From positions 744,001 through 808,000 of the forward strand of contig NZ_APNH01000001.1 in assembly GCF_040361275.1 (NCBI RefSeq): a stretch of 64,000 nt of DNA. Direction: 5' to 3'. The DNA comes from Salinisphaera sp. T31B1. GTDB taxonomy: Bacteria > Pseudomonadota > Gammaproteobacteria > Nevskiales > Salinisphaeraceae. The translations under genes were made by a program, and so were the position numbers. Under the pieces are notes generated by a model, which saw only the letters and a list, made by a program, of their open reading frames with translations, was not told the origin of the DNA and did not search any database. Positions 2,321-19,910 of this stretch are shown piece after piece; positions within the stretch are counted from its first letter, which is position 1, and the number at the start of each line of letters is the position of its first letter.

Positions 2321-3904
2321 CTAGAGCGTGACCGCGCCGCCATCGGCCCGGGGGTCGCTGGCGCCTTCACAATAGCCCTGCGGGTGACGTACGACGGCGC
2401 CGGCATGGCCGGCCAGATCGGAGTACGCATCGATCATTTCGACCTGATGGCCGCTGGCGATCAGGTCGTCGACCAGCGCGCTATCGAATCGATCCTCCAG
2501 CTTGAGGCTGGTGGTGGCATCGCCCCAGGTCTTGCCGAGCAGCCAGCGCGGCGCGGTCACCGCGCGTTGCAGGCCCTGGCCGTACATCGCATAGCGCGAG
2601 AATACCGCCGCCTGGGTCTGCGGCTGGCCTTCGCCGCCCATGGTGCCGTAAGCCATCACGCGGCCGTCGCCGAGTTCGGCCATGGCCGGGTTGAGCGTAT
2701 GGAACGGGCGCTTGCCGGGGGCCAGCTGGTTGGCCCCCGGGGCCAGCGAAAACCCGGCGCCGCGGTTCTGGAAGGCTACGCCGGTATCCGGGCAGGTCAG
2801 CCCCGAGCCAAACTCCCAGAACACGCTCTGGATGAAGCTCACCATGGTGCCGTCGCGGTCCGTCGCGCCCATCCAGATGGTATCGCCCTGCTTGGGCTCG
2901 TAGGGCCAGGCGAGCGCCTGGCGCGGATCGATCGCGGCCCGCAGCCGGTCCAGATGGTCGGGCTCGAGCCAGGATTCGGCCGGGCGGGCCATGTGATCGG
3001 GATCGCCCAGCTCCGCGTTACGGAGGATGAAGGCTTGCTTGGTGGCCTCGATCAGGCCGTGCAGATGGTCGAAGCCTTCGGCGTCGGCGACCTTCAGACG
3101 GTCGAACAACGCCAGAATCATCAACGACGACACGCCCTGGGTGGGCGGCGGCATGTTGTAGATCGTGCCTACCGAGAGTTTCGTGGACAGCGGGGCGACG
3201 ATATCGGCCGCGCACTGGGCGAGATCCCGGGCGCGCAGCGGCGAGCCCATCGCTTCCAGATAGGCAGCATGCGTTTGTGCCAGCGAGCCGTTGTAATAGC
3301 TGTCCAGCCCTTCGCGCGCGAGTGTTTCCAGGGTATGGGCGAGCGCGTTCTGATAGAAGATATCGCCTTCGCGCGGCGCGTTGCCGCCGGGCAGGAAGAT
3401 ATCCGCAAAGCCGGGGACGTGGCGTAGTTCCTCGGCTTTGGCGGCCGTACAGGCGGCTTGGTTGCCGGTGGTCACGAAACCGTCGCGGGCATGAGCGATC
3501 GCGGGTGCGAGCAGGGTGCCCAACGCCATCGGTTCGCGTTCGAGCTGGTTCAGGGCCGTTTGCCAGCCGGCGATCGTGGCCGGCGTGGTCAGCGCGGCCT
3601 GGGCGCCGCGGGCCGGAATCTGTTGGTGATGACCATGTCCGGCATACCAGTCCGGTGTGGCCAGCGCCGCGGCGCGACCGCAGGCCGAAATGCCGATCGG
3701 GGCCTGTCCGGGCTTTCGGATCAGCCAGAAACCGTCTCCGCCGATCGAATTCATATGTGGGTAGACCACGGCGATCGTGGCCGCCGCGGCCACCATGGCC
3801 TCGATCGCGCTACCGCCGGCCGCAAGCACGTCCCGGCCCGCCAGGGCGGCCGACAGATGGGGTGCGGTGACACAGCCGTAACGGCCCTTGGCGCTTTGCA
3901 GCAT
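2321..3904 (-). CDS. Gamma-glutamyltransferase-family Ntn hydrolase, oxamate amidohydrolase (HpxW)-like
   Basis: A 527-residue member of the self-processing gamma-glutamyltransferase fold. The likely autoprocessing nucleophile is Thr342 in QGDTIWMG, followed by MVSFIQSVFWEFGSG and a proline-rich PGKRPFHTLNPAM stretch. The GDTIWMG context resembles Klebsiella HpxW (oxamate amidohydrolase) more than glutathione-cleaving enzymes, which carry a TTHFS-like motif. No export signal is seen, which fits a cytoplasmic HpxW. ATG 3904 is chosen for the GAGGAC ribosome site just upstream; an ATG at 3946 would add 14 poorly conserved residues. It is divergent from an amidase and an HpxZ-like gene, as expected of an hpx-type cluster. 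The precise substrate is inferred. Confidence 0.8.
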   Translation of the reverse strand: MLQSAKGRYGCVTAPHLSAALAGRDVLAAGGSAIEAMVAAAATIAVVYPHMNSIGGDGFWLIRKPGQAPIGISACGRAAALATPDWYAGHGHHQQIPARGAQAALTTPATIAGWQTALNQLEREPMALGTLLAPAIAHARDGFVTTGNQAACTAAKAEELRHVPGFADIFLPGGNAPREGDIFYQNALAHTLETLAREGLDSYYNGSLAQTHAAYLEAMGSPLRARDLAQCAADIVAPLSTKLSVGTIYNMPPPTQGVSSLMILALFDRLKVADAEGFDHLHGLIEATKQAFILRNAELGDPDHMARPAESWLEPDHLDRLRAAIDPRQALAWPYEPKQGDTIWMGATDRDGTMVSFIQSVFWEFGSGLTCPDTGVAFQNRGAGFSLAPGANQLAPGKRPFHTLNPAMAELGDGRVMAYGTMGGEGQPQTQAAVFSRYAMYGQGLQRAVTAPRWLLGKTWGDATTSLKLEDRFDSALVDDLIASGHQVEMIDAYSDLAGHAGAVVRHPQGYCEGASDPRADGGAVTL

Positions 3905-3990
3905 GGAATGTCCTCTTCGGTTCTGGCAAACGCCATCGGCTGGCACGCCCCTGGATCACCGGGCTGGGCCCATTCGCCGACGACTCTAGC

Positions 3991-4006
3991 TGGCACGTCG
4001 GTTGCA
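3991..4006 (+). promoter_or_regulatory. Sigma-54 (-24/-12) promoter for the amidase operon
   Basis: TGGCACG at 3991-3997, four bases, then TTGCA at 4002-4006 matches the sigma-54 consensus TGGCACG-N4-TTGCW at every defined position. The -24 GG is 3992-3993 and the -12 GC is 4004-4005. Transcription would start near 4017, about 120 bases before the amidase ATG. Sigma-54 control fits nitrogen-scavenging genes. Confidence 0.82.
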
Positions 4007-4136
4007 TACAACGACGCGTGCATAAACAGGCGCGCCGACGGCCGTTGGTTCGAGCCTGCAATACCCGTGCCGACGGGCGATCGCTCGGTCGCAGCGACAT
4101 GGGTTCGAAAACCGTGATTACCCATGGGATGTCGAT

Positions 4137-5351
4137 ATGTCAGTCATCGAGGATACCGTTCACGCCTTCTGTCTGGACAATCCGGCCATACAGGCGCCGA
4201 CCGGCCACGGCGTCCTGTCGGGGCTGCGATTCGCAGCCAAGGATGTTTTCGAGGTCGCCGATACCCGTACCGGCTTCGGCCAGCCTGATTGGTTGGCCTC
4301 GCATCCGCCGGCGTCGATCAACGCCGACTGTATCGAGCGACTGCTGGCTGCTGGGGCCGCGCTGGCCGGCCGTACCGTATCCGACGAGTTGTGCTACTCG
4401 CTGACAGGCGATAACGCGCACTACGGCGCGCCCAGGAACAGCTGGGGGGCTGATCGGCTCAGCGGCGGTTCGTCCAGCGGTTCGGCCGCGGCGGTCTGCG
4501 CGGGGTTGGTGGATTTTGCCCTCGGCACCGACTGCGGCGGCTCCGTGCGTGTGCCGTCGAGCTATTGCGGCCTGCTCGGCCTGCGTACGACGCATGGGCG
4601 CGTGCCCACGCGCGGCCTGCTGCGCTTTGCCAGCGAGTTCGACTGTATCGGCTGGTTCGCACGTGATGCGGGGATCTTCGAACGGGTCGCCCGCGTGCTG
4701 TTGCCCGAAGCGCGCGAGCAGGGCGCATTCAGGCGATTGTTGATCGCCACCGATGCCTTCGCCGCCGTGGACACAGCGATCGCCGACGCATTCGCGCCAG
4801 CGCTGGAGACGCTTTCCGCGCAGATCGGTGCCACGCATGACGTGCGTCTGTCGGAAGACGGGCTGGATCGCTGTTTCGAGACCTTTCGCATCATTCAGGC
4901 GGCCGATGTGTGGTCGGCGCTCGGTGACTGGGTGACCCGGACCCGGCCCACGCTCGGCCCCGGCGTGCGCGAGCGGATCGAGCAGGCCGGGCAGATCGGC
5001 GCCGCCGAGCTGCGCGCCGCCCAGGCCCATCGGGCTGAAATCGTGGCCCGGCTGGATACGCTGATCGGCGAAGACGATGTGGTGGTCCTACCCACCACGC
5101 CCCGCCCCGCGCCGCCGCGCGGGGGCGGCGATGACGCGCTGGAAACCACGTATCGCTTCCAGGCGATGTCGTTGCTGTGCAGCGCGGGTCTGGCGGGCCT
5201 GCCGCAGATGAACCTGCCGCTGGCGATGAAGGATGGCCTGCCGCTGGGCCTGTCGATCATGACACGCCGCAACGGCGACATGCGGCTGATCGAACTGGCC
5301 GGGCAGGTCTGCCCGCAGGCGCCGGTACCGCCCGATGCGGTGCGCCCATGA
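4137..5351 (+). CDS. Amidase-signature hydrolase (AMI1/HpxY/AtzE-like)
   Basis: A 404-residue amidase-signature enzyme that hydrolyses a C-N amide bond. The Ser-cisSer-Lys triad is visible: Lys35 in RFAAKD, cis-Ser112 in GGSSSGS and nucleophile Ser136 in GTDCGGSVRVPS, with the usual 24-residue spacing between the serines. The N-terminal half closely resembles plant AMI1-type amidases. Its position beside an HpxW-like enzyme and an HpxZ-like protein recalls HpxY, but the small DUF4089 partner (HpxX/AtzG) is not seen. A sigma-54 promoter lies upstream; the start has only a weak ribosome site. It overlaps the next gene by four bases. The substrate is unknown. Confidence 0.87.
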   Translation: MSVIEDTVHAFCLDNPAIQAPTGHGVLSGLRFAAKDVFEVADTRTGFGQPDWLASHPPASINADCIERLLAAGAALAGRTVSDELCYSLTGDNAHYGAPRNSWGADRLSGGSSSGSAAAVCAGLVDFALGTDCGGSVRVPSSYCGLLGLRTTHGRVPTRGLLRFASEFDCIGWFARDAGIFERVARVLLPEAREQGAFRRLLIATDAFAAVDTAIADAFAPALETLSAQIGATHDVRLSEDGLDRCFETFRIIQAADVWSALGDWVTRTRPTLGPGVRERIEQAGQIGAAELRAAQAHRAEIVARLDTLIGEDDVVVLPTTPRPAPPRGGGDDALETTYRFQAMSLLCSAGLAGLPQMNLPLAMKDGLPLGLSIMTRRNGDMRLIELAGQVCPQAPVPPDAVRP

Positions 5352-5749
5352 GCCAGTCGCCCGATGGCATCAACCGGCGCGACGTCGTCGCCGAAGTCAC
5401 CGATGCACTCATGCGCTACGAGGCCGCGCTCACCGGCAACGATGTCGCCACGCTCGATGAGTTGTTCTGGAACAGCGAACATACGGTGCGCTACGGCGCC
5501 ACCGAAATGCTCTACGGCCACGACGAGATCCGCGCCTTTCGCAAGGCGCGCAGTCCCGCCCATCTCGACCGCCGCATACGACGGATTGCGATCACGACCT
5601 TCGGCGAGGATTTCGCCACCGCCAGCATCGAATTCGAGCGCGAAGGCGAAGACGGGCTGACGATCGGCAGGCAGAGCCAGTGCTGGGTTCGCTTCGATAC
5701 GGGTTGGCGGGTTGTGTCGGCGCACGTATCCGCGTTGCCAAACAATTGA
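5348..5749 (+). CDS. hpxZ: HpxZ/AtzH-like protein (DUF3225, NTF2-like fold)
   Basis: A 133-residue protein matching the DUF3225 family by INRRDVVAEVTDALMRYEAA, LDELFWNSEHTVRYG, RQSQCWVRF and WRVVSAHVS. HpxZ sits in the Klebsiella purine/oxalurate cluster, and AtzH, in the cyanuric acid pathway, is an amidase of the same fold. The start overlaps the amidase stop as ATGA, implying translational coupling. It may act as an amidase or as a partner of the neighbouring one. Its presence is the clearest sign that this cluster belongs to ureide or triazine-type nitrogen catabolism. Naming it hpxZ rests on family and context. Confidence 0.82.
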   Translation: MSQSPDGINRRDVVAEVTDALMRYEAALTGNDVATLDELFWNSEHTVRYGATEMLYGHDEIRAFRKARSPAHLDRRIRRIAITTFGEDFATASIEFEREGEDGLTIGRQSQCWVRFDTGWRVVSAHVSALPNN

Positions 5750-5893
5750 CGGCTGTGTAAAACCGGAAGACGAGTCTGTCGCGGACGCGAAACCGACAGA
5801 TCGCCTGCGCACTCGCGACCAGTCGGCCCGATTCAAGGCGTCTGGTTCGTCGCGGTGTCGACGACCCTGTGCTCCACGCGTGCTCTATTTCTC

Positions 5894-6394
5894 ATGCCCG
5901 ATACTTTCGACGTCGCTGAAGAACTCGCCCGTATCGAAGCCCGCTCGCCGCTGTTGGTGCGGCCGGGTTTCCTCATCCGACGGCTGCACCAGATTCATAG
6001 CGCGCTGTTCACCAAGGAAACCGAAGGATTCAATATCACGCCGGTGCAATACAGCGTGCTTACCGCGCTGGCCGAGCACGGCGAAATGGATCAGATGACC
6101 CTGGCCCACGAGATCGGACTCGAGCGCACCAGCGTGGGCGATGTGCTGCGCCGCCTCGAACAGCGCGAGCTGGTCGAGCGCCGCGCGAGCAGCGAAGACG
6201 GCCGGGTGCGCCTGACCCGGGTCACCCGCAAGGGGCGCAACCACGTGCGCCGGATGACCGACGCCGTGCAGCGCGCCCACGAGCGCACGATCGAAGCACT
6301 CGCCGGCCCCGATCGCGACCTGTTCATCTGGTATCTCGGCCGCCTGGTCGAGGCGAACAACGATATGGGCACCGTGCCTTTCCGTCTGCGCTAG
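5894..6394 (+). CDS. MarR-family transcriptional regulator
   Basis: A 166-residue winged-helix regulator. The MarR core is clear: ITPVQYSVLTALAEHGEMDQ, the recognition helix region LERTSVGDVLRRLEQRELVE, and the wing SEDGRVRLTRVT. It lies between the amidase pair and the amidohydrolase operon, so it probably controls one of them by responding to a pathway aromatic or ureide. I use ATG 5894; an in-frame GTG at 5855 would add 13 residues, and neither has a convincing ribosome site. The palindromes at 6521 and 6624 are possible binding sites, although they could belong to an enhancer-binding protein. Confidence 0.88.
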   Translation: MPDTFDVAEELARIEARSPLLVRPGFLIRRLHQIHSALFTKETEGFNITPVQYSVLTALAEHGEMDQMTLAHEIGLERTSVGDVLRRLEQRELVERRASSEDGRVRLTRVTRKGRNHVRRMTDAVQRAHERTIEALAGPDRDLFIWYLGRLVEANNDMGTVPFRLR

Positions 6395-6520
6395 ATCGCG
6401 CGCCGTCGTCGCCGCTCCGGGCGGCCCGTCCCGTGGGTGGCCTGTGCCGACAGCTCGTCGCAGATTCTCGTGCTCGCGTAGCGGGCGTCGATTCGCTGAC
6501 AGCAATCATCTGCTAAAAAT

Positions 6521-6536
6521 ATGGGGTGCACCACAT
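6521..6536. promoter_or_regulatory. Palindromic operator or enhancer site, copy 1
   Basis: ATGGGGTGCACCACAT is a near-perfect inverted repeat centred on GGTGCACC. It matches the copy at 6624 at 12 of 16 positions. Its centre lies about 190 bases upstream of the sigma-54 -24 element, a normal distance for an upstream activating site. A further GGTGCA lies at 6551-6556, giving a TGCACC-N18-GGTGCA arrangement with a spacing unlike the NtrC consensus. Confidence 0.55.
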
Positions 6537-6623
6537 AGTTCCCCCAGCCTGGTGCAGGCGCGTTGTTTTCGCGCATCGCCTAGGGCTGTGTGCAGTCGCG
6601 CCGCCGCATTCGCCGAGTGCGAT

Positions 6624-6639
6624 ATGGGGTATACCACTC
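6624..6639. promoter_or_regulatory. Palindromic operator or enhancer site, copy 2
   Basis: ATGGGGTATACCACTC repeats the copy at 6521 with a GGTATACC core. The centres are 103 bases apart and this one lies about 85 bases before the -24 element. The binding protein is unknown: the adjacent MarR protein or an unseen enhancer-binding protein are the candidates. Confidence 0.55.
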
Positions 6640-6709
6640 AATTAGTAAATAAATTATCCTTTCATAAACAGTATTTTAAATATAAAGCGCCTGCTTCCTA
6701 ACGTCGCCC

Positions 6710-6725
6710 TGGCACAGCCCTTGCG
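6710..6725 (+). promoter_or_regulatory. Sigma-54 (-24/-12) promoter for the amidohydrolase/Mo-hydroxylase operon
   Basis: TGGCAC at 6710-6715, five bases, then TTGC at 6721-6724 fits the sigma-54 consensus; only the last, weak position is G instead of A/T. Transcription would start near 6737. This favours ATG 6765 over an in-frame ATG at 6732 as the amidohydrolase start. Confidence 0.82.
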
Positions 6726-6764
6726 CTATCCGTGTCATCGCAGACAGGACATGCAGGAGCCAGA

Positions 6765-8036
6765 ATGTCGACAACGGTGTTGAAAGGCGGTCGGGTCGTG
6801 GACCCGGCGACGGGAACCGATGAACAGGCCGATCTGGTCATACAGAACGGCATCGTCACCGGCTTGAATGCCCCCTACGCCTCGGACGCCGAGGTCATCG
6901 ACTGCACGGGCAATTTGGTGTTGCCCGGCATGATCGATACCCATGCCCATGTCTATCGCTATGTGACCGGGCGTTTCGGCCTCGATCCGGACATGTGCGG
7001 CGTGCGTTCGGGCGTGACCACGCTGGTCGACCAGGGCGGGCCGAGCTGCATGACCCTGCCCGGCTTTCGCCATTTCATCGCCGAGCCGGCCAAGACTCGG
7101 GTGCTGGCCTTCATATCGGCCTATCTGGTGGGCGGGCTGGAAGGGCATTACTACCCGCAGCTCTACCAGCCGGAATGTCTGAACGTTGATGCGACCGCCA
7201 AGGCCGTCGATGCCAACCTCGATCTGGTCAAGGGCATCAAGGCACATGCCGAGCTGGGCGGTTTCCAGCGCTGGGGCATGGATGTGATCAAGCTGGCGGC
7301 CCAGATCGGGCGCCAGTCGCGCATGCCGGTCTATCTGCACTTCGGCCAGCTCTGGCCGTCGCCGGAAGACCCGATGGATATCGATCCGGACACCATCTTT
7401 CCGAGCGTGCTCGAACTGGTGAAGCCGGGCGACGTGCTCGCGCATCCATTCACCCGTCATCCCGGCGGGTTCGTGGACAAGCATGGCCAGGTGCATGGAC
7501 TCATTCGCGACGTGATCGACAAGGGCGTGAAGATCGACGTCGGCCACGGCTCGCATTTCAGCTTCGATGTCGCCCGCAAGGTGCTGGATGCCGGCATCGT
7601 GCCGAATACGCTCGGCGCGGACATGCACGGCTACAACACGCGTATCGCGCCGCCGCCGGGCACGCCGGATATCCATTCCGACCCGGAAGAAGGCGACCAC
7701 ATGTTTGCCGGCGCGGTGCGCTTTTCGCTCACCTCGACGATGACCAGCATGCTCGCGCTGGGGCTCACGCTCGATCAGGTCGTGCCGATGGTCACGTCCA
7801 ACGCGGCCGCAATGCTCGGCATGCAAGCCGAGATCGGCCATCTCAAGCCGGGCGCGGTCGCGGACGTATCGGTACTCAACGACGACCGCGGCCAGTGGAC
7901 GCTGCGCGATAACGAAGGCCATCGCGTGAGTGCCGAGCGCATGCTCACGCCGCGATTCTGTCTGCGCGCCGGCGAGCGCTTCGATGCCGATGCGCCCACG
8001 CTGCCGCAGTTCGCGCCGGCCCAAGCCTCGGCATGA
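6765..8036 (+). CDS. Dihydroorotase-like amidohydrolase/deacetylase
   Basis: A 423-residue metal-dependent hydrolase of the amidohydrolase superfamily, probably cytoplasmic. The metal site reads His60-x-His62 (IDTHAHVYR), a candidate carbamylated Lys159 (KGIKAHAE), His192 (YLHFGQ), His227 (AHPF) and Asp286 (GADMHGYN). Such enzymes open cyclic amides or ureides, or deacetylate amino acids. ATG 6765 has AGGAG at 6755-6759 and lies downstream of the predicted sigma-54 start point. It overlaps the large molybdenum-hydroxylase subunit by four bases, so the two are translationally coupled. I infer hydrolysis of the ring or amide produced or consumed by that hydroxylase; the substrate is not known. 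Confidence 0.85.
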   Translation: MSTTVLKGGRVVDPATGTDEQADLVIQNGIVTGLNAPYASDAEVIDCTGNLVLPGMIDTHAHVYRYVTGRFGLDPDMCGVRSGVTTLVDQGGPSCMTLPGFRHFIAEPAKTRVLAFISAYLVGGLEGHYYPQLYQPECLNVDATAKAVDANLDLVKGIKAHAELGGFQRWGMDVIKLAAQIGRQSRMPVYLHFGQLWPSPEDPMDIDPDTIFPSVLELVKPGDVLAHPFTRHPGGFVDKHGQVHGLIRDVIDKGVKIDVGHGSHFSFDVARKVLDAGIVPNTLGADMHGYNTRIAPPPGTPDIHSDPEEGDHMFAGAVRFSLTSTMTSMLALGLTLDQVVPMVTSNAAAMLGMQAEIGHLKPGAVADVSVLNDDRGQWTLRDNEGHRVSAERMLTPRFCLRAGERFDADAPTLPQFAPAQASA

Positions 8037-10390
8037 CCGGCGCTGTGCCCGACACGCAGGCCAAGGGCATCGGCGCCCGGCTCGCGCGCAAGGAAGACGC
8101 CCGTTTTCTGAGCGGTCGCGGCGAGTTCGTGGCCGACATCCGCCGCCCGGACATGCTGGACGTGGCGTTCGTGCGTGCGCCGGTGGCCCACGCCCGCATC
8201 GTCGAGATCGAAAAACCGGAAGGCTGGGAATCGCTGGTCTACACCATGGCCGACATGGCCGGTGTGAAGCCGATCGTGGCGGCCTCCAAGCTGCCGGGTT
8301 TTCAGAAATCCGAACAGTATCCGCTGGCCCGCGACAAGGTCCGTTTCGTTGGCGAGATGGTGGCCATGTGTGTGGCACCCAGCCGCGCCCGCGCCGAGGA
8401 TCTGGCCGAGCAGGTGTTCGTCGACTACGAAGACCTGCCGGTCGTCTCCGACATGCATGCCGCTGCCAACGGCAACGCCGAAGGCAAGCTGCATGAACAC
8501 TGGGATTCCAACGTCTTCCTGGAAACCCAGGTGGATAACAAGGTCGGCATGGCCGACGACGTCGTGAGCGTGCGCCGGCAATTGTCGACCTCGCGCCAGT
8601 GTCAGGTCCCGCTGGAAGGCCGTGGCGTTGTCTGCTGGTGGGACCATCGGCTCAACCGGCTGGAGATGACCAGCGCGGCACAGATGCCGCATATCAACCG
8701 TACCGGCCTGGCCGAGTGCCTGGGCCTGGATGAAGGCCAGGTGCGTGTCGTCTCGCCCGACGTGGGGGGCGGCTTCGGCTACAAGGGCATCCTGCTGCCC
8801 GAAGAAATCTGTTGTGCGTGGCTGGCGATGAAACTCGACCGCCCCATCCGGTGGATCGAGGATCGGGGCGAGCATCTGTCGGCCAACGCCAACTGTCGTG
8901 AACACGCCTACGACATCAGCGTGCACGTCGAACGCAGCGGCCGGCTGGCCGGCATCGACTGCGATGCGATCGTGGATTCCGGCGCCTATTCCTCGTACCC
9001 GTTCTCGGCCTGTCTGGAAGCCGCCCAGATCGGCTCGATCCTGCCGGGCCCTTACAAGATGGACAGCTACAGCTGTCATACGCGCTCGGCGGCGACCAAC
9101 AAGCCGCCGATCCTGCCGTATCGAGGCGTGGCCCGTACCGGCGTGTGCTTTGCGCTGGAAGTGATGCTGGATATCGCTGCTCGCGAGCTCGGCATCGAGC
9201 CGTTCGAACTGCGCGAACGCAGCCTCGTCGGGGCTGACGACATGCCCTATACGAACATCACGAACAAGCTGTTCGACTCCGGCGACTATATCGCCTGCAT
9301 GCATCGCGCGGTCGAAGCGCTCGACTGGGCCGGCTGGCGCGCGCGTCAGGCCGAAACCAATGGCCGCAAACGGATCGGCCTGGGTCTGGCGACGTTCTGT
9401 GAACAGGGCGCCCACGGCACCTCGGTGTACCACGGCTGGGGCATCCCCATGGTGCCCGGCTACGAGCAGTGCAATGCCCGCGTGACCACCGATGGCATTC
9501 TCGAGCTGCAGATCGGTGCGCATTCGCACGGCCAGAGCATGGAAACCACCATGGCCCAGGTGGCAAACACGGTGCTGGGTATCGACCCGGCACAGGTGCG
9601 CATCATGCACGGCGATACCGGCGGTTCGCCTTACTCCACCGGGACCTGGGGCTCGCGCAATGCCGTGATGTCCGGCGGCGCAGTCGCGGCCGCCTGTGAA
9701 AAACTCGCCGATCGCGTGCGGCGTCTGGCTAGCCATCTGATGGACGTCGCGCCGGACGATCTGATCTTTGAAAACGGCGGCGTGGTCAGCGGCGATCGCA
9801 GCCGCTCGATGACGCTCGCCGAGATTGCGCATACCTGGTATCGCGCGCCGCAGCGGTTGCCCGACGACGTCGACCCGGCCGGGCTCGGCCTGGTCGCCGG
9901 TTACAAGATGAAGCCGGACATGGGCACCTTCAGCTATGCGACCCATGCCTGTGCGGTCGAGGTGGATACCGTCACCGGCGCGGTCAAGCTGCTCGACTAC
10001 GCCATCTGTGAAGACGGCGGCGTGTTGCTCAATCCGATGGTGGTCGAAGGCCAGCTGCTCGGCGGCCTCGCCCAGGGCATCGGCACCGCGCTCTACGAGG
10101 AAATGCCCTTCGACGATGAAGCCCAGCCGTTGGCCTCGACGCTGGCCGACTACATGGTGCCGGGCGCGGCCGAAATGCCGCCTCTGACCATCGAGCATAT
10201 GGAAACGCCGAGCCCGTTCAGCCGCTTCGGTCAGAAAGGCATCGGCGAAGGCGGGGCGATTGCGCCGCCCGCGGCGATCGCGAATGCGGTCAACGATGCG
10301 TTGGCCGCACTGGGCGCCGAGATTCACAGCGTGCCGATTTCGCCCGAGCGCGTCATCGCGGCACTGGAGGCAGCCCGTGAAAGCCATTGA
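8033..10390 (+). CDS. Molybdenum hydroxylase large subunit (CoxL/XdhB family)
   Basis: The 785-residue molybdopterin-cytosine-dinucleotide subunit of a xanthine-dehydrogenase-family hydroxylase. Characteristic stretches are VVSPDVGGGFGYKG, PILPYRGVART (about residues 360-370), GDTGGSPYSTGTWGSRNA and the catalytic Glu739 in GIGEGGAIAPP. The active-site loop is PYRGVART, not the AYxCSFR loop of true aerobic CO dehydrogenase, so CO oxidation is unlikely despite the Cox-like gene order. It should hydroxylate an N-heterocycle or aldehyde, passing electrons to the M and S subunits encoded next. It starts within the amidohydrolase stop (ATGA). Confidence 0.9.
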   Translation: MTGAVPDTQAKGIGARLARKEDARFLSGRGEFVADIRRPDMLDVAFVRAPVAHARIVEIEKPEGWESLVYTMADMAGVKPIVAASKLPGFQKSEQYPLARDKVRFVGEMVAMCVAPSRARAEDLAEQVFVDYEDLPVVSDMHAAANGNAEGKLHEHWDSNVFLETQVDNKVGMADDVVSVRRQLSTSRQCQVPLEGRGVVCWWDHRLNRLEMTSAAQMPHINRTGLAECLGLDEGQVRVVSPDVGGGFGYKGILLPEEICCAWLAMKLDRPIRWIEDRGEHLSANANCREHAYDISVHVERSGRLAGIDCDAIVDSGAYSSYPFSACLEAAQIGSILPGPYKMDSYSCHTRSAATNKPPILPYRGVARTGVCFALEVMLDIAARELGIEPFELRERSLVGADDMPYTNITNKLFDSGDYIACMHRAVEALDWAGWRARQAETNGRKRIGLGLATFCEQGAHGTSVYHGWGIPMVPGYEQCNARVTTDGILELQIGAHSHGQSMETTMAQVANTVLGIDPAQVRIMHGDTGGSPYSTGTWGSRNAVMSGGAVAAACEKLADRVRRLASHLMDVAPDDLIFENGGVVSGDRSRSMTLAEIAHTWYRAPQRLPDDVDPAGLGLVAGYKMKPDMGTFSYATHACAVEVDTVTGAVKLLDYAICEDGGVLLNPMVVEGQLLGGLAQGIGTALYEEMPFDDEAQPLASTLADYMVPGAAEMPPLTIEHMETPSPFSRFGQKGIGEGGAIAPPAAIANAVNDALAALGAEIHSVPISPERVIAALEAARESH

Positions 10391-11192
10391 TTACCGTATC
10401 GAACGCGCGCCCGACTTGGCGGGCGTCATCGACGCCCTGCAGGCCGATCCGTTCGCCAAGCCCATCGCTGGCGGCCAATCGCTGGGTGCCATGCTCAATC
10501 TGCGTCTGGCCCAGCCCGAATGCGTGATCGATCTGGCCGGGCTGGACACCCTCAAGGGCATGCATATCGACGGCGACGACATGGTCATCGGCCCGCTCGT
10601 CACCCACGCCACGCTCGAAGATGGGCGCTACGAGGATGCGACCGGCGGCATGCTCGCCCATGTGGCGGGCGGCATTGCCTACCGCGCTGTGCGCAACAGC
10701 GGCACCATCGGCGGCAGCCTCTGTCATGCCGACCCGGCCGCCGACTGGATCGCAGCGACCGCGGCACTGGGCGCGGTTTTCGAAATCCAGGGCCCGGACG
10801 GTACACGCCGGCTCGCGGCCCGCGAATTCATGACCTCGGCGTTCGAGACCGCTCTGGCCGAGGCCGAGGTGCTCAGCGCCATCCGTGTGCCCGCGCTGGG
10901 CGACGACGCGCGCTGGTCCTATCGCAAGTTCTGTCGCAAGACCGGTGAATTCGCGCTGGCCATCGTCAGCGGCGTGGCCGACGCCCGGACGGGCATCGAA
11001 CGGCTGGTGTTCTCCGCCCTCGACGGCGCGCCGGTCGTGATCGAACGCGCCGGCCTGTTCGAAGAGCTCGCCGAGACAAGCGCGCGTGACGCATTGCTCG
11101 ACGACGAGCTGTTGTCACTCACCGGCCACCGCCGCGCCCTGCATGCCGGCCTGCTCGCCGACGTGGTGGCCGATCTGCGAGGTATCGCATGA
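10377..11192 (+). CDS. Molybdenum hydroxylase FAD subunit (CoxM family)
   Basis: The 271-residue medium subunit that carries FAD and passes electrons onward. The FAD-binding signatures AGGQSLGAMLNLR and the TIGGSLCHADPAAD stretch are present. The start is GTG 10377, supported by GGAGG at 10366-10370 with a six-base gap; it overlaps the large-subunit gene by 14 bases. The next gene begins in the ATGA at its stop, so L, M and S should be made together as a heterotrimer. Confidence 0.9.
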   Translation: MKAIDYRIERAPDLAGVIDALQADPFAKPIAGGQSLGAMLNLRLAQPECVIDLAGLDTLKGMHIDGDDMVIGPLVTHATLEDGRYEDATGGMLAHVAGGIAYRAVRNSGTIGGSLCHADPAADWIAATAALGAVFEIQGPDGTRRLAAREFMTSAFETALAEAEVLSAIRVPALGDDARWSYRKFCRKTGEFALAIVSGVADARTGIERLVFSALDGAPVVIERAGLFEELAETSARDALLDDELLSLTGHRRALHAGLLADVVADLRGIA

Positions 11193-11707
11193 GCGCTCCT
11201 CTCCAATTTCCGCAAAGCAACACGGTCACGTTTCGTCTGACTGTGAACGGCCAGGAACGTGAAATCAGCGCCGAGCCGCGGACCCATCTGGCCGATGTGC
11301 TGCGCGAGCACTGTGGTCTGACCGCGACCCATCTGGGCTGCGAGCAGGGCGTATGCGGAGCCTGCACGGTCGAGATCGACGGCGTGCCGCAGCGCTCCTG
11401 TCTGCAGTCCGCCACACGCTTCGAAGGCCGCGAGATTCGTACGCTCGAGGCCTTCGAAGACGACCCGCTCGGCGCGGCCCTGCGCCGTGCCTTCAGCGAA
11501 GAACATGCCCTGCAATGCGGCTATTGCACGCCCGGCATGCTCATGACCGCGCACGACATCGTGCAGCGCCTGCCCCATGCCGACGAGGCCCGTATCCGCG
11601 AAGAACTGGCCGGCAATCTGTGCCGGTGCACGGGCTATCGCGGCATCGTGCGGGCGATTCAGCGCGTGCTCGAAACCTATCCCCACGAGAGTTCCGATGG
11701 ACGTTAA
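11189..11707 (+). CDS. Molybdenum hydroxylase iron-sulfur subunit (CoxS family)
   Basis: The 172-residue small subunit with two [2Fe-2S] clusters. The plant-ferredoxin-type cluster uses Cys51, Cys56, Cys59 and Cys71 (GCEQGVCGACT...SC). The second uses the CGYCTPGM and CRCTGY pairs in the helical domain. It overlaps the FAD subunit gene by four bases and the CoxG-like gene by eleven. Together with the L and M subunits it forms a complete three-subunit hydroxylase. Confidence 0.93.
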   Translation: MSAPLQFPQSNTVTFRLTVNGQEREISAEPRTHLADVLREHCGLTATHLGCEQGVCGACTVEIDGVPQRSCLQSATRFEGREIRTLEAFEDDPLGAALRRAFSEEHALQCGYCTPGMLMTAHDIVQRLPHADEARIREELAGNLCRCTGYRGIVRAIQRVLETYPHESSDGR

Positions 11708-12326
11708 ACAACGCTTCACCATTGACGCCCCGGCCGACGATGTCTGGCAGGCCTTTCAGGACCCGGCCCTGCTGGTCGAGTGTCTGCCGGGGGCGACGCT
11801 GACCGAACCGGTCGCCGACAACCACCTCAAGCTCATGTTTCAGGTCAAGCTCGGCCCGATTTCGGCAGCGTTTGCCGGCGAGGGCGACTTGAGCCTCGAC
11901 GACACCGCGCATACCGGCGGCCTGCAGGGCCGCGGTACCGACCGCAAGAGCAACAGCCGGGTGAAAGGCGAGGCCGCCTTTGCGGTCATCGACGAAGGAG
12001 CTGTAACCGCGGTCGAGTTGAATGTGTCGTTTTCGATCACCGGCAAGCTGGCCCAGTTCAGCCGCGAAGGCATCGTCAAGGCCCTGGCCGATCAGCTCAC
12101 CCGCGATTTCGCCGACAACCTGCAGCAGGCGTTGCAGCCCGAGGCGACAGCCGACGCCGCGGTGCCGGCCGGCGAAACGCGCCCTGCATCCGAACGCGGC
12201 GGCACGCCGGCCGGCTCCCGCCCACGATTGAAGTCGGTGGATACCAGTTCGGTGAACGCGTTGAGCCTGGTCTGGCGGATGATCGTGAGCTGGTGGCGCC
12301 GGCTGCTGGGTAAATCGCCGGCATGA
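11697..12326 (+). CDS. CoxG-like SRPBCC protein with C-terminal membrane anchor
   Basis: A 209-residue protein of the CoxG family, part of the START/SRPBCC fold. The N-terminal 150 residues (MDVKQRFTIDAPADDVWQAF, VECLPGATL, GPISAAFAGEGDLSLDD) are typical. After a low-complexity linker the end is amphipathic and rich in Trp and Arg (LVWRMIVSWWRRLLGK), which fits the known role of CoxG in tethering the hydroxylase to the membrane. ATG 11697 lies inside the CoxS gene. It is likely to anchor or mature the hydroxylase encoded just before. Confidence 0.85.
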   Translation: MDVKQRFTIDAPADDVWQAFQDPALLVECLPGATLTEPVADNHLKLMFQVKLGPISAAFAGEGDLSLDDTAHTGGLQGRGTDRKSNSRVKGEAAFAVIDEGAVTAVELNVSFSITGKLAQFSREGIVKALADQLTRDFADNLQQALQPEATADAAVPAGETRPASERGGTPAGSRPRLKSVDTSSVNALSLVWRMIVSWWRRLLGKSPA

Positions 12327-13432
12327 GCGTCGTTGCGCCAGAGCGGCTCGATGCCAAGCGGGGTCAGGCCGCCGCGCTTTTCGAGGGCGCCTGCTTGCGC
12401 GGCGTTGCGCGCCTGTCCGATATGCGTCCCGAGCTGGGCGACGACGTGCTGCTGCACGCCGGCCCGCCACTGGATACGCACGCGCTGCCGTATCCGGTAC
12501 GCAATGCCGCGGTGCACGCCCTCGTTTATGCCGGCTGGCCGGCCGGCGACGCGGCGCGCGCGATCGATACCGACGCCATCCGTTTCGAACCCGCCCAGGA
12601 TCACGGCGTGGTTACGCCGCTGGCGCAGGTGGTATCGAATGCCATGCCGGTGTTTCGGGTCGGGGACGAGCGCCATGAAGTGGCGGCGCCCATTGCCGAG
12701 AGCGCGCCGCCCGCGCTGCGTTTTGGTTCGGCCGACGAGGCCTGCGTAATCCGCCTGCGCCAACAGGCGGAATGGGCGTTCGGCGCGCTCGCGCCGCGGT
12801 TGGCCGATGCGCCGCTGCCGATACGCGACTGGATCGATGCCGCGCTGGTCGAAGGCGACGAATGCCATGCCCGCACCGGCGTAGCCAACGCCCGGCTGAT
12901 CTCGGCGCTGGGCGAGCTGCCCGAAGACTATGCCGAGTCGATCGCGGCCAACGCCAACTTCGTGCTGCCGATACTCATGGCCGCCAGCGCCTGGGCCATA
13001 CGTCGACACCGCGGTTCGATCGCGGCGGTCGGCGGCAACGGCCAGCGCTTCGGTGTGCGTTTCGACGACGAACAGGACTGGCGCACGGTCGATGCCCGGC
13101 CGCCGATCGGCGTCGCGCTGGCCGGCGGCGAGCAGCTACCGGTGCTCGGCGCGGTCGGCGACAGCCCGGTCATCGATTTCTGCGGCCTGGGCGGCCAGGC
13201 GCTCGCCTTTGCGCCGGCCCTGGTCGAGGCCTGGGAGGCCCTGCTGCCGGCCGACTGGCAGGAACGTGCCGATGCGGTCAGCGACGACGAAACCGGCCTG
13301 GTCTGCCGCCATCGCATCGCGGCCAGCGGACGGTCGCCGCTGGTGCATCTGGCCCTGGTCAGCGCAGCGCCCGAGGGTGGGCTGGCCGGCCGCGGATTCT
13401 ATACGCCGCCCATGGCGTTGTTCAGGGGGTAG
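12323..13432 (+). CDS. DUF1116 protein, AllG/YlbE-like
   Basis: A 369-residue protein recognisable as DUF1116 by DDVLLHAGPP, the HGVVTPLAQVVSNAMPVF stretch, ALVEGDECHARTG, DFCGLGGQALAFAPAL and the closing GFYTPPMALF. Known relatives (YlbE/AllG, YahG) work with FdrA-type proteins; AllG has been linked to catabolic oxamate carbamoyltransferase, which splits oxalurate into oxamate and carbamoyl phosphate. Neither FdrA nor AllH partner is encoded in this window, and this copy is shorter than E. coli YlbE. It overlaps coxG by four bases and so belongs to the operon. The role is inferred from family and context. Confidence 0.78.
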   Translation: MSVVAPERLDAKRGQAAALFEGACLRGVARLSDMRPELGDDVLLHAGPPLDTHALPYPVRNAAVHALVYAGWPAGDAARAIDTDAIRFEPAQDHGVVTPLAQVVSNAMPVFRVGDERHEVAAPIAESAPPALRFGSADEACVIRLRQQAEWAFGALAPRLADAPLPIRDWIDAALVEGDECHARTGVANARLISALGELPEDYAESIAANANFVLPILMAASAWAIRRHRGSIAAVGGNGQRFGVRFDDEQDWRTVDARPPIGVALAGGEQLPVLGAVGDSPVIDFCGLGGQALAFAPALVEAWEALLPADWQERADAVSDDETGLVCRHRIAASGRSPLVHLALVSAAPEGGLAGRGFYTPPMALFRG

Positions 13433-13679: not shown

Positions 13680-15332
13680 ATGGACGCCAGCGCATTTCTG
13701 CATTACCTGACCCTGCCGTTGCTATGGGAAGGGCTCAAGACCGCGATGATCATCGCCGTGATCGCGTTCGCGGCCGCACTGCCGTTCTCGCTGGGCATGG
13801 CGATGATGCGCATGTCGCACTACAGGATCGTGCGGCTGTTGCCCATTCCGTATATCTGGGTCATGCGCGGCACGCCGATCCTGTTGCAGCTGCTGTTCTG
13901 GTACAACGTGCTGCCGCTGGTCGGCCTGGGGCTGAGCGCGTTCTGGACGGCGGTACTCGGGCTGATGCTCAACGAGATCGCCTTCATGTCGGAGATCATC
14001 CGCGGCGGTCTGCAGTCGATCAAGAAAACCCAGCGTGATGCGGCCAGTGCGCTCGGTCTGACCTCGTGGCAGATCATGTATCGCGTGATCATGCCGCAGG
14101 CAATGCGCTCGATCGCGCCGGCGATGGCCAACGAAGGCATGGTCATCGTCAAGCACACCTCGCTGGCCTCGGTGATCACCGTGCAGGAGCTCACGCTCAG
14201 CAGCGAACAGGTGGTCTCGACCAACTTCCAGTATGTCGAGGTCTTCATGGCCGCCGGCGTGCTCTATCTGGCCGCCACCACGCTGATCGCGCTGGCCCAG
14301 AACTATCTCGAGCGCCATCTCGATCTCGAACGGCGCGGGCATGCGATTGCGATCGCGGCCCAGGCCGGGCGTGATCGCGGCGGCAATCCGGTGGTCGATG
14401 CACCGCAGCCTGCCGGTGCCGGCCCGGGTGGTGGCGCCGCCACGATCGATGCCGAAGCGCCGGCCCTGCAGAAGTTCCTCAATCCCGGCCGTGACCTCGC
14501 TACGAAAGATGGCAGGCGAGCCGACCGCCCGCGCCGGCCGTATGTGGTGATCAACAAGGTATCCAAGTCCTTTCACGGCAAACGCGTGCTGCGCGATGTC
14601 TCGTTCAACATCTTTCCGGGCGAGGTGGTGTTTTTGATCGGGCCCAGCGGCTCCGGCAAGACCACGCTGCTGCGCACGATCAACCGGCTGGAAACCGTCG
14701 ACGACGGCGAGATCACCGTGGGCGGACAGTTCGTGGGCTATCGCGCATCCGCCGGCCGGCCGGTGCCGATGCGTGACGCGGCGCGCTCTCGCGCCAAGGT
14801 CGGCGTGGGCATGGTGTTCCAGCATTTCAATCTGTTCGACCACCTGACCGTGCTCGAAAACGTCATCGAAGCGCCGGTACGCGTCCACGGCGCGAAACGT
14901 GAACAGGCCCGTGCCGAAGCCCGCGAGCTGCTCGCCTGGGCCGGGCTGGCGGAATACGAAAACCACTATCCGCATCAGCTGTCCGGCGGCCAGCAGCAGC
15001 GTATCGCCATCATCCGTGCGGTCGCCACGCGGCCGAAGCTGCTGTTGTTCGACGAACCCACCTCGGCGCTCGACCCCGAGCTGGTCAACGAGGTGCTCGA
15101 CCTCATGCGCAAGCTCGCCGAATCCGGCATGACCATGGTGGTGGTCAGCCACGAGATCGTGTTCGCCCGCGACTGGGCCGACAAGGTCGTGTTCATGGAA
15201 GACGGCGAGATCGTCCAGCACGGCGCGCCGGAAGCGGTCTTCAACTCGCCGGACAACCCGCGCACGAAGAATTTCGTGAATCTCATCGAGCAACGTTCCG
15301 AAGGTAAATCTTCCAAAACCGTAGAGGTATAA
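13680..15332 (+). CDS. Fused permease-ATPase of a polar amino-acid ABC importer
   Basis: A 550-residue protein joining two subunits normally made separately. Residues 1 to about 225 are a HisM/GlnP-type permease with about five membrane segments and the EAA-like loop AASALGLTSWQIMYRVIMPQ. A Gly/Ala/Pro-rich linker spans about 227-287. The rest is a GlnQ-type ATPase with Walker A GPSGSGKTT near 320, signature LSGGQQQR, Walker [15 protein letters not shown] and an SHE switch. ATG 13680 has GAGAAGAGGG upstream. The binding-protein gene follows after three bases. Two copies of this chain would suffice for a complete importer, probably of an amino acid or a similar nitrogen compound. Confidence 0.92.
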   Translation: MDASAFLHYLTLPLLWEGLKTAMIIAVIAFAAALPFSLGMAMMRMSHYRIVRLLPIPYIWVMRGTPILLQLLFWYNVLPLVGLGLSAFWTAVLGLMLNEIAFMSEIIRGGLQSIKKTQRDAASALGLTSWQIMYRVIMPQAMRSIAPAMANEGMVIVKHTSLASVITVQELTLSSEQVVSTNFQYVEVFMAAGVLYLAATTLIALAQNYLERHLDLERRGHAIAIAAQAGRDRGGNPVVDAPQPAGAGPGGGAATIDAEAPALQKFLNPGRDLATKDGRRADRPRRPYVVINKVSKSFHGKRVLRDVSFNIFPGEVVFLIGPSGSGKTTLLRTINRLETVDDGEITVGGQFVGYRASAGRPVPMRDAARSRAKVGVGMVFQHFNLFDHLTVLENVIEAPVRVHGAKREQARAEARELLAWAGLAEYENHYPHQLSGGQQQRIAIIRAVATRPKLLLFDEPTSALDPELVNEVLDLMRKLAESGMTMVVVSHEIVFARDWADKVVFMEDGEIVQHGAPEAVFNSPDNPRTKNFVNLIEQRSEGKSSKTVEV

Positions 15333-15335
15333 GCC

Positions 15336-16151
15336 ATGACCGAGACCACACCCTTCAAGAAACTGCTGACTGCGTCGGCCCTGTTGGCCGCCGCGGTGAC
15401 CACGGCCCCGGCATTCGCGGCCGATTCGTACGTGATCGCCACATCCGCCGATTTTCCGCCGCTGAGCTATCGCGATTCCGAAGACACCTCGAAGATTATC
15501 GGCTTCGAGATGGACATGATCGAAGCCATGTCCGAGCACGGCGGCTGGGACTACGAGCTCAAGACCAGTGCCTTCAATGGCCTGCTGCCATCGCTCAAGA
15601 GCGGGCGCGTGGATATGGTGGTATCCGATATCTACAACACCGCTGAACGGCGCAAGAGCGTGGATTTCATCAACTACATCGAAAACGGCTTTGCGGTGAT
15701 GGTGCGCGCCGAGGATGCGGACACGCTCACCGGCTATGACGCGATGTGCGGCAAGAACATCGGCATCCTCACCGGCAGCGCACCGGAAATGGATGCGGTG
15801 ACCGCGGCCAGCGAGAAGCACTGCGAATCGCAGGGCAAGCCGGCGATCCAGCCGAAGTCCTATCCGTCGGTCGCCCAGGAGATTCCGCAGCTGGCCAACG
15901 GCCGTCTTTCGGGAATTCTGGAGACGTTGACCACGCTGGCCTATGCCCAGAGCCAGAACGAGGGCAAGTTCGAGATCGCCTTTCGCGACCCGAACACCAC
16001 GAAAGTGGGCATCGCGATTCGCAAGGACAGCGACTTCGCCGACGCCATCCGTGAAGACATGGCCTGGTACATGAGCTCGGGCACCGCCGACGAAAACGCC
16101 AAGAAGTGGGATATTCCGGTCGAGGCGTTGATCAAGACCGATAGCCCATAG
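15336..16151 (+). CDS. Polar amino-acid ABC transporter substrate-binding protein
   Basis: A 271-residue periplasmic binding protein of family 3. It has a signal peptide ending at AFA-ADS, the fold-typical ATSADFPPLSYRDS, and GLLPSLKSGRVDMVVSDIYNT. It starts three bases after the fused permease-ATPase and is clearly its partner. A hairpin follows the stop. The ligand is not evident; a polar amino acid or a ureide is plausible given the neighbouring enzymes. Confidence 0.9.
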   Translation: MTETTPFKKLLTASALLAAAVTTAPAFAADSYVIATSADFPPLSYRDSEDTSKIIGFEMDMIEAMSEHGGWDYELKTSAFNGLLPSLKSGRVDMVVSDIYNTAERRKSVDFINYIENGFAVMVRAEDADTLTGYDAMCGKNIGILTGSAPEMDAVTAASEKHCESQGKPAIQPKSYPSVAQEIPQLANGRLSGILETLTTLAYAQSQNEGKFEIAFRDPNTTKVGIAIRKDSDFADAIREDMAWYMSSGTADENAKKWDIPVEALIKTDSP

Positions 16152-18036: not shown

Positions 18037-18039
18037 TCC

Positions 18040-19059: not shown

Positions 19060-19910
19060 TGGCGGCGACTTCGACCTTCACCCATGCCCGCTATGTGCTC
19101 GGCGAGAATCCGCTCACGGTCGTCTCCTTTGCACTGTTTTTCCTGCTGGTGCTGCTGGCGGCCTTCGGGCCGTGGATTGCGCCCTACGACCCGTTGGCCA
19201 GCGATACCGCGATCAAGCTCATGGCGCCGTCCGCCGAGCACTGGTTCGGCACCGATCATCTGGGCCGGGATGTGCTCAGCCGCGTGATCGTAGCCACCCG
19301 GCTCGATCTGATGATCGCGCTCTCGGCCGTGGCGCTCGCGTTTTTCGGCGGCAGCGTGCTGGGCAGTCTGGCCGGCTACTACGGCGGCTGGACCGACCGT
19401 GTGATCGGGCGCGTCATCGATACGGTCATGGCCTTTCCGTTGTTCGTGCTGGCGATGGGCATCGTCGCGGTGCTGGGTAACAGCGTGGAGAACATCGTTT
19501 ATGCCACGGCGGTGATCAACCTGCCGTTTTATGCGCGCGTGGCCCGGGCCGAAATCGGCGTACGCCGCGACTCCGGTTTCGCGGCCGCTGCCAAGGTCGC
19601 CGGCAACGGCAATATCGGCGTGCTCGCACGCCATCTCTATCCGAATATCCTGCCGGCGATGATGGTGCAGCTGTCGTTGAACATGGGCTGGGCGATATTG
19701 AACGCGGCCGGCCTGTCGTTCATCGGTCTGGGCGTGCGCCCGCCCACGCCGGAGTGGGGCATCATGGTCGCCGAAGGCGCGCAGTTCATCGTGTCTGGCG
19801 AATGGTGGCTGGCGGTATTCCCCGGCGTATCGCTGATGATTGCGGTGTTCTGCTTCAACATGATGGGCGACGGGCTGCGCGATCTCATCGACCCGAGGCG
19901 ACGCACATGA
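19059..19910 (+). CDS. Peptide-type ABC transporter permease (DppC-like)
   Basis: The second permease, 283 residues. It has the DppC N-terminal helix followed by PYDPLASD, then FGTDHLGRDVLSRVI, the EAA loop and LNAAGLSFIGLGVRPPTPEW. It shares one base with the preceding gene and overlaps the first ATPase by four, so expression is tightly coupled. Confidence 0.93.
   Translation: MAATSTFTHARYVLGENPLTVVSFALFFLLVLLAAFGPWIAPYDPLASDTAIKLMAPSAEHWFGTDHLGRDVLSRVIVATRLDLMIALSAVALAFFGGSVLGSLAGYYGGWTDRVIGRVIDTVMAFPLFVLAMGIVAVLGNSVENIVYATAVINLPFYARVARAEIGVRRDSGFAAAAKVAGNGNIGVLARHLYPNILPAMMVQLSLNMGWAILNAAGLSFIGLGVRPPTPEWGIMVAEGAQFIVSGEWWLAVFPGVSLMIAVFCFNMMGDGLRDLIDPRRRT

Follow-up and report, generated by a model that had tools for sequence, protein, structure and literature searches.

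A conserved module of catabolic genes is described here from a stretch of 64,000 nt (the window) on contig NZ_APNH01000001.1 of Salinisphaera sp. T31B1. It combines a COG3964-type metallo-amidohydrolase, a three-subunit molybdenum hydroxylase (CoxL, CoxM and CoxS) with its accessory protein CoxG, an amidase, an HpxZ/AtzH protein, an HpxW-like hydrolase, a MarR-family regulator and a stand-alone protein of the DUF1116 superfamily. The genes are more than chance neighbours. About ten enzyme and transport genes keep company in this way in many bacteria of soil and water; what is new in the conserved set is how known enzyme families are combined, and it is not a new kind of system. The preferred reading, to which we assign a probability of about 0.45, is that the module would serve the catabolism of a carboxylated N-heterocycle via acyl-urea or amide intermediates. 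By comparison with described systems, the best-supported view is that the pathway operates in the manner of the lower cyanuric acid pathway and of the oxalurate/oxamate route and is a member of neither. The stand-alone DUF1116 branch is the most interesting element of the module. A literature search of open-licence PubMed Central papers found no description of this gene combination. It also found no homologous cluster with an assigned substrate, which an earlier note on this DNA had singled out as the outcome that would count against its proposal.

Distribution and co-inheritance of the gene set

A species-level scan (one genome each) yielded 309 relatives of the amidohydrolase, the best 80 of which were kept as named loci (handles beginning with L denote loci or stretches, those with G genomes). 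Among these best 80, most are from Burkholderiales and some are alphaproteobacterial, and the closest relatives are those of Salinisphaera shabanensis and S. orenii (94-96%). Presence of the module in Salinisphaera appears to be patchy, a DUF1116 match being lacking in two other genomes of the genus. Gene content was counted in the 54 named loci with full flanks, the 26 of 80 with short flanks being excluded, and presence was set by author-chosen identity thresholds. On this basis CoxL was present in 44 loci, DUF1116 in 40, MarR in 38 and CoxG in 36; less common were HpxZ (16 loci), the amidase (14) and the HpxW-like gene (8). At least one of the last three occurs in 22 loci, and DUF1116 is also found in 21 of these. 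Gene order is reshuffled freely. Complete sets are carried by three Azospirillum plasmids, with identities to the window proteins of 57% (HpxW-like), 47-48% (amidase), 55-59% (HpxZ) and 59-60% (CoxL). In genome G648, about 24 kb (the overlapping stretches L124 and L130) hold the amidohydrolase, the amidase, HpxZ, DUF1116, a dipeptide-type importer and an allophanate hydrolase, together with LysR, CoxL-M-S, MarR and an HpxW-like gene (66%). This recurrence in changing gene order is the reason to regard the set as one functional unit, as the earlier note had supposed. The contig of L039 is labelled as a Klebsiella pneumoniae metagenome bin; its layout is the same as that of the betaproteobacterial bin L036, and the label may be wrong.

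The amidohydrolase clade was present in 11 of 398 evenly drawn Pseudomonadota genomes, including the window's own, and all matches had E ≤ 4.7e-149 although 1e-60 was allowed. Low-scoring DUF1116 genes of the module type (90-126 bits with PF06545) occur in 4 of these 11 genomes and in none of the other 387 (Fisher p 3e-7, or 1e-5 if the window's own genome is left out); the split by score was chosen after the scores had been seen. Of the 387 genomes without the clade, 11 have genes of the AllG type, with high scores (215-331 bits), and one (G593) has a sub-threshold PF06545 fragment with stops, which was not counted. In the first 20 kb of ten random loci, MarR was present in nine, CoxL in eight and DUF1116 in three, and the added flank L130 gives one more CoxL and MarR. 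From their counts in the named and random loci, MarR, the amidohydrolase and the molybdenum hydroxylase form the core of the module. The acyl-urea enzymes are the mark of one large variant, which includes the window locus.

Amidohydrolase and molybdenum hydroxylase

The amidohydrolase belongs to family NF006689, which we take to be COG3964. Residues H60, H62, K159, H192, H227 and D286, presumably the ligands of a binuclear metal site, are invariant in 43 of 43 aligned sequences (the window protein and 42 of 72 amidohydrolases). Its AlphaFold2 model is nearest to the structures 8je0, 8wzy and 2ogj, followed by dihydroorotases, allantoinases and hydantoinases. The best match of CoxL in the PDB is quinoline 2-oxidoreductase (1t3q, 502 bits), and the fourth is 6-hydroxypseudooxynicotine dehydrogenase. 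CoxL carries a GIGE motif and a PYRGVAR loop, the latter found in 57 of 67 surveyed CoxL-type proteins. The motif AYxCSFR, which we assume to be the copper-binding loop of form I aerobic carbon monoxide (CO) dehydrogenase CoxL, was found in none of the CoxL-type proteins of the surveyed loci.

HpxZ/AtzH, amidase and HpxW-like enzymes

HpxZ matches the AtzH structure 6bjt at 145 bits, and the nine residues that PMC6219798 gives for the pocket, including Tyr22, are all retained. Seven of these are invariant in 26 aligned HpxZ sequences, Arg96 is found in 25 and Gln108 in 22. AtzH has been proposed to convert 1,3-dicarboxyurea to allophanate in cyanuric acid breakdown (PMC6219798, excerpt). AtzG-E-H clusters are described with ggt, with allophanate hydrolase and ATP-binding cassette (ABC) transporters, and with a monooxygenase and flavin mononucleotide (FMN) reductase (same excerpt); section 14 of that paper names no molybdenum hydroxylase, COG3964 or DUF1116 partner for them. 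The solved AtzH/HpxZ homologue 2owp (Bxe_B1374) is only the fourth match, at 96 bits. The tag Bxe_B1374 is presumably in the locus-tag style of Paraburkholderia xenovorans LB400, and the protein is not that strain's module copy.

The amidase scores 188 and 180 bits with the AtzE models, under their cut-offs of 461 and 426. Its Lys and Ser-rich signature motifs were found, and we assume that they have the roles usual in amidase-signature enzymes. An AtzG/HpxY-like subunit gave no match in the window's genome in a search in which no control genome matched either.

The best PDB match of the HpxW-like protein is 5hft (chains A and B, 282 and 244 bits), against 165 bits for the gamma-glutamyl transpeptidase (GGT) 2e0w. 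We take 5hft to be HpxW, although the PDB listing says gamma-glutamyltranspeptidase. Chain B of 5hft starts at Thr356 of the 541-residue reading of the protein, the expected nucleophile. A true GGT is disfavoured, 5hft scoring far above the GGT chains and TIGR00066 matching under its cut-off. The enzyme is closer to HpxW than to GGT and keeps the nucleophile Thr; it may hydrolyse oxamate. Homologues were found at 10 of the 80 named loci, with identities of 89-93% in two Salinisphaera and 49-52% in the eight others. L013 (1357-6830), which comes from the same taxonomic class as the window, has an HpxW-like gene (53%) at a distance of about 1.3 kb from canonical AllF and AllG-type DUF1116 genes. 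The HpxW and AllFGH families, which the earlier note had thought to belong to separate pathways, are joined in L013 by this closeness.

The stand-alone DUF1116 protein

The DUF1116 protein is a member of superfamily PF06545 with the fold of 3clq. Its AlphaFold2 model has a mean confidence (pLDDT) of 94.9, and 3clq is the only PDB entry found at E ≤ 0.001 (Foldseek E 2e-22). It shares with AllG the core residues His45, Arg133, Asp179, His182, Asn239 and Gly279-Asp-Ser281 (alignment of the window protein and 36 of 37 full-length DUF1116 rows). The oxamate transcarbamylase of E. coli requires AllF, AllG and AllH (PMC11326118, excerpt). In the window's genome the AllH family PF11392 gave no match while the E. 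coli control was positive, and AllF was matched only in part, at 26% (residues 117-291 of 555), away from the locus. AllF, AllH and AllK had no match in the stretches examined of 87 amidohydrolase loci, AllH being sought by tblastn of the E. coli protein. The same search detected AllF in L010 and L013; its AllH part carries little weight, because no AllH was found in L013 either. The 15 high-scoring PF06545 genes come from 11 of the 398 genomes, none of which has the amidohydrolase clade, and AllF lies beside 14 of the 15.

A tree of 68 sequences is divided by a branch with support of 100/100: on one side are all 17 AllFGH-type rows with two further sequences, on the other the 44 module rows with five more. 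The 44 group together at moderate support (87/67), several branches being long and the finer placement unsure. All 44 module sequences have Asp at position 285, where all 17 of the AllFGH type have Glu; at position 357, Arg is present in 43 of the 44 (L009 has Phe), against Ala in the 17. Six fragments ending before residue 279 were left out of this signature count. Among the sequences compared only Arg357 is specific to the module, because Asp285 recurs in stand-alone proteins encoded close to Rieske oxygenases (L151, L153). These belong to a second, different context of the stand-alone branch, seen on plasmids of Rhodococcus ruber (L151, 11875-13098 and 21576-22616), Ruegeria conchae (L152, 11908-13101) and Paracoccus aminovorans (L153, 11911-13098). 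No AllF is annotated in these stretches, and amidases are also present in L152 and L153.

An AllFGH oxamate transcarbamylase was rejected on the absence of AllH, the unconvincing AllF, the separate branch and the different signature residues. The protein is not AllG in the oxamate carbamoyltransferase sense, and the transfer of a carbamoyl group, one of the options in the earlier note, is therefore unproven.

Importers and the link to allophanate hydrolase

Two ABC importers follow the module. Orthologues of the first stand at the head of the L009 module (fused permease-ATPase 62%, SBP3 56%). The solute-binding protein SBP3 keeps the Arg of the ERK motif of amino acid binders, which presumably holds the carboxylate, and has Glu at their Asp position, which hints at an acidic ligand. 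Orthologues of the second importer (SBP5 56-64%, permeases 66-70%) lie beside the amidohydrolase in L042, L123 and L124, in one run with an allophanate hydrolase (TIGR02713 above cut-off). A query with the urea carboxylase-sized protein of the window's genome had no match in these three loci or in the flanks L129 and L130; over 104 stretches it gave a full match in L088 and a partial one in L095. As urea carboxylase is not matched there, the pathway itself may make allophanate in L042, L123 and L124.

Proposed pathway

According to the preferred reading, an acidic, amino-acid-like ring compound would be imported by the ABC transporters (step 1). CoxLMS, aided by CoxG, would hydroxylate a ring carbon next to nitrogen to give a cyclic acyl-urea or imide (step 2), which the COG3964 metallo-amidohydrolase would open (step 3). 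The amidase and HpxZ/AtzH may then hydrolyse and decarboxylate the opened product, an N-acyl or N-carboxy urea, in the manner of AtzE and AtzH in cyanuric acid breakdown, and in some hosts the end product may be allophanate, for allophanate hydrolase (step 4). The stand-alone DUF1116 protein would act on a ureido or carbamoyl group with neither AllF nor AllH as partner (step 5), and the HpxW-like enzyme would release ammonia from the last amide, much as HpxW acts on oxamate (step 6). MarR would sense the substrate or a product. All these reactions and their order are predicted from the sequences. The earlier note had likewise proposed a ureide or amide pathway for an N-heterocycle. That proposal fits the enzyme classes, the intact AtzH pocket and the allophanate hydrolase linked in three loci; the carbamoyl transfer that it allowed for is unproven. 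A more specific version is tentative and rather doubtful. It is that an undescribed pathway exists in which a cyclic acyl-urea is formed by the molybdenum hydroxylase (by an FMN monooxygenase in sister loci), the COG3964 enzyme opens the ring and the stand-alone DUF1116 protein cleaves the ureido group alone, Arg357 and Asp285 perhaps replacing AllF and AllH.

The AtzDGEHF pathway for cyanuric acid of Pseudomonas sp. ADP (PMC6219798, excerpt) has in common with the module a ring-opening amidohydrolase, an amidase-signature enzyme, an AtzH with intact pocket and, in some loci, allophanate hydrolase, and thereby the logic of stepwise acyl-urea hydrolysis. However, the ring opener of the module is of the COG3964 type and not AtzD, its amidase is of the PRK08310 type, no AtzG was found (in the search without a working control), and it adds a molybdenum hydroxylase, CoxG, DUF1116, an HpxW-like enzyme and MarR. 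The hpxWXYZ genes of Klebsiella likewise bring an HpxW-like hydrolase, HpxZ and an amidase together, and a ggt-atzG-atzE-atzH arrangement has been described (PMC6219798, excerpt); the module differs in having no HpxY/AtzG detected by that search, another amidase subfamily, and an additional molybdenum hydroxylase, COG3964 enzyme and DUF1116 protein. With AllFGH of E. coli (PMC11326118, excerpt) it shares the DUF1116 family and its core residues, but AllH and a convincing AllF are absent from its genome, Asp285 replaces Glu and Arg357 replaces Ala, and its proteins lie across the 100/100 branch. Quinoline 2-oxidoreductase and related molybdenum hydroxylases have the same three-subunit layout and GxGE motif and the top PDB score; here, in contrast, the partners are a COG3964 amidohydrolase and acyl-urea enzymes, and the PYRGVAR loop is present.

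Variant loci and evidence against the preferred reading

Several observations weigh against the preferred reading. DUF1116 is missing in 14 of the 54 full-flank named loci and in 7 of the 10 random loci. In Methylobacterium, on a Geminicoccaceae plasmid and in several genomes, the amidohydrolase and the molybdenum hydroxylase, sometimes with an alpha/beta hydrolase, stand without acyl-urea enzymes in the stretch examined. In view of these two kinds of loci, the core may have other substrates. Nor is a ring required by all COG3964 enzymes, an example being the hydrolysis of acetyl-mandelate. The CO dehydrogenases 8uem and 1ffu are the second and third PDB matches of CoxL after 1t3q, and its best NCBIfam models are CO dehydrogenase and glyceraldehyde dehydrogenase, both far under their cut-offs. 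A CO dehydrogenase was rejected despite this ranking, on the absence of the copper-loop motif. The allophanate hydrolase of the window's own genome lies far from the module in a urea amidolyase-like operon; it adjoins the urea carboxylase-sized gene and was rejected as a module gene.

The oxidising enzyme also varies, CoxL being missing in 10 of the 54 loci. Of the loci without it, L031, L032, L052 and L088 have an FMN monooxygenase of the NtaA/DmoA type or a homologue, L020 a more distant molybdenum hydroxylase (35%), and L043 and L057 a TauD-type dioxygenase, while L042, L047 and L089 have neither CoxL nor a monooxygenase, distant molybdenum enzyme or TauD. In L031 and L032 the FMN monooxygenase and a flavin reductase are in the amidohydrolase's own gene run; the L032 protein is of the NtaA/DmoA type and nearest to YtnJ/MoxC in the PDB. 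The FMN monooxygenase regions, with flavin reductase-like neighbours, are at 16600-18564 in L031, 16440-18345 in L032 and 5039-6953 in L052, and L058 carries both CoxL and an FMN monooxygenase. This leaves two explanations: oxidation by alternative enzymes, or use of related substrates. Fe(II)/2-oxoglutarate dioxygenases in the 54 loci comprise PhyH (12), isopenicillin-N-synthase-like (12) and TauD (2) proteins. PhyH and the isopenicillin-N-synthase-like protein are never in the same locus (0 of 54, p 0.03), a result confounded by taxonomy. DUF1989 (5 loci) and an FmdA-like protein (3) are also recurrent. A single DUF1989 gene (urea amidolyase-associated-like, under cut-off) is in or beside the module in L009 (1625-2224), L024, L033 and L041. 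FmdA-like genes are near the module in L020 (12412-13392) and L031 (1943-2902), the latter far under the FmdA cut-off.

Alternative interpretations

Two alternatives, each unlikely and to a similar degree, concern the identity of the ring. The first is an oxalurate/oxamate form of the preferred reading, in which a hydantoin, hydroxyhydantoin or parabanate-type ureide would yield oxalurate, then oxamate with carbamate or urea, and the HpxW-like enzyme would convert oxamate to oxalate. HpxZ (an equivalog), the HpxW-like enzyme and the AllG superfamily are three unrelated families named for oxalurate or oxamate (PMC11326118 and PMC5270733, excerpts), and the gene neighbourhood of L013 described above agrees with this route. 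It is opposed by the absence of AllH, the unconvincing AllF, an amidase that is not of the AtzE type and the lack of matches to AtzG-like HpxY, sought without a working control. E. coli Oxc gave a single partial match of 29% (L044) and Frc three matches of 29-31% (window, L101 and L016) over 104 stretches including the window. As these weak matches are all, no linked oxalate-CoA route of the Oxc/Frc type was seen, other oxalate enzymes not having been tried. Molybdenum hydroxylases, moreover, rarely attack the sp3 carbon of hydantoin. Of two further candidates for such a route, a thiamine pyrophosphate enzyme in L096 fits PRK08327 better and over its cut-off, and a CoA-transferase in L016 fits succinate-glutarate CoA-transferase better, itself under cut-off.

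The second would start from a pyridine- or pyrimidine-type ring and pass through a cyclic imide to an unsaturated amide acid, the amidases being generic and no ureide being involved. The ranking of CoxL, highest against quinoline 2-oxidoreductase and fourth against 6-hydroxypseudooxynicotine dehydrogenase, is in keeping with such a ring, as are nic-type genes after the module on two Azospirillum plasmids and the FMN monooxygenase and flavin reductase in the amidohydrolase run of L031 and L032. Linkage to allophanate hydrolase and AtzH nevertheless indicates an N-CO-N unit. The nicotinate link was set aside because A. ramasamyi has the complete module with no nic-type genes beside it.

Somewhat less likely is a linear substrate, with the amidohydrolase as deacylase or esterase and CoxLMS as aldehyde oxidase in the breakdown of N-acylated or amide-linked linear compounds. 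NCBIfam names the family amidohydrolase/deacetylase, and CoxL scores 516 bits with the glyceraldehyde dehydrogenase model, under its cut-off of 790. The top-scoring solved molybdenum enzyme, on the other hand, is an N-heterocycle hydroxylase, and N-carboxy ureas are the substrates of the partners AtzH and allophanate hydrolase (PMC6219798, excerpt).

A thione or thiohydantoin, whose ring C=S the molybdenum enzyme would desulfurise as in ergothioneine breakdown, with LLM/TauD-type oxygenases reflecting sulfur chemistry, is very improbable: some variants have a YtnJ/MoxC-like monooxygenase, a TauD-type dioxygenase or a TauE/SafE exporter, but TauD is in only 2 of 54 loci, no TauE/SafE is annotated in the A. 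ramasamyi module, and nothing relevant was found in the open-licence papers, ergothionase and urocanate hydratase not having been searched for.

Locus organization and neighbouring genes

All genes named by the earlier note were found at 2321-13432, with the two ABC importers downstream to 21936; the MarR gene in the middle of the locus (5894-6394) had been omitted from its list. Coordinates (Table 1) are counted within the window. Gene calls in the loci were made with a home-made codon-usage gene caller, by which starts are approximate and some genes are missed. The genes from the amidohydrolase through CoxL, CoxM, CoxS and CoxG to DUF1116 overlap by 4, 14, 4, 11 and 4 bases; the earlier note had taken such overlaps to mean one transcript. 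The region as a whole probably comprises at least three transcription units, since the HpxW-like gene runs the other way and the MarR gene is set off by gaps of 144 and 370 bases. Beyond about 22 kb the genes seem unrelated, judged by opening residues only. A tripartite ATP-independent periplasmic (TRAP) transporter lies upstream of the module (14-2108), beside acyl-CoA ligase-like and enoyl-CoA hydratase-like genes, and one is also present in L101 (18323-18811). There is no support for counting it in the module: the upstream genes resemble an acyl-CoA unit of their own, and the DctP matches close to other modules reach only 25-27% (L098, L129).

Table 1. Genes of the module and the adjoining importers in the window
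Feature	Position	Strand	Evidence
HpxW-like N-terminal nucleophile hydrolase (gamma-glutamyltransferase fold), probable small-amide amidohydrolase	2321..3904	-	PF01019 417 bits
Amidase-signature hydrolase, PRK08310 type, not AtzE	4137..5351	+	NF006169 475 bits, cut-off 391
HpxZ/AtzH (DUF3225), probable N-carboxy-urea decarboxylating amidohydrolase	5348..5749	+	NF033625 185 bits, cut-off 135
MarR-family regulator	5894..6394, start maybe 5855	+	open frame; MarR-type models match below cut-offs
COG3964-type metallo-amidohydrolase, probable ring opener	6765..8036	+	NF006689 406 bits, cut-off 371
CoxL-type molybdopterin subunit	8033..10390	+	PF02738, PF20256, PF01315
CoxM flavin adenine dinucleotide (FAD) subunit	10377..11192	+	PF00941
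CoxS 2x[2Fe-2S] subunit	11189..11707	+	PF01799, PF00111
CoxG (SRPBCC) accessory protein	11697..12326	+	PF06240 55 bits
Stand-alone DUF1116 protein, AllG superfamily, separate branch	12323..13432	+	PF06545 about 98.5-100 bits, cut-off 27
Fused permease-ATPase, polar amino acid type ABC importer	13680..15332	+	PF00528, PF00005
SBP3 solute-binding protein	15336..16151	+	PF00497
Dipeptide-type ABC importer: SBP5, two permeases, two ATPases	16417..21936	+	

Biological significance

A discrete and widely shared enzyme set points to a nitrogen compound that is used by many Burkholderiales. The module would give real substrates to COG3964 amidohydrolases, to AtzH/HpxZ outside cyanuric acid breakdown and to DUF1116 outside AllFGH. 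If it is true that the stand-alone DUF1116 protein cleaves ureido groups, this would be a second function of the DUF1116 superfamily.

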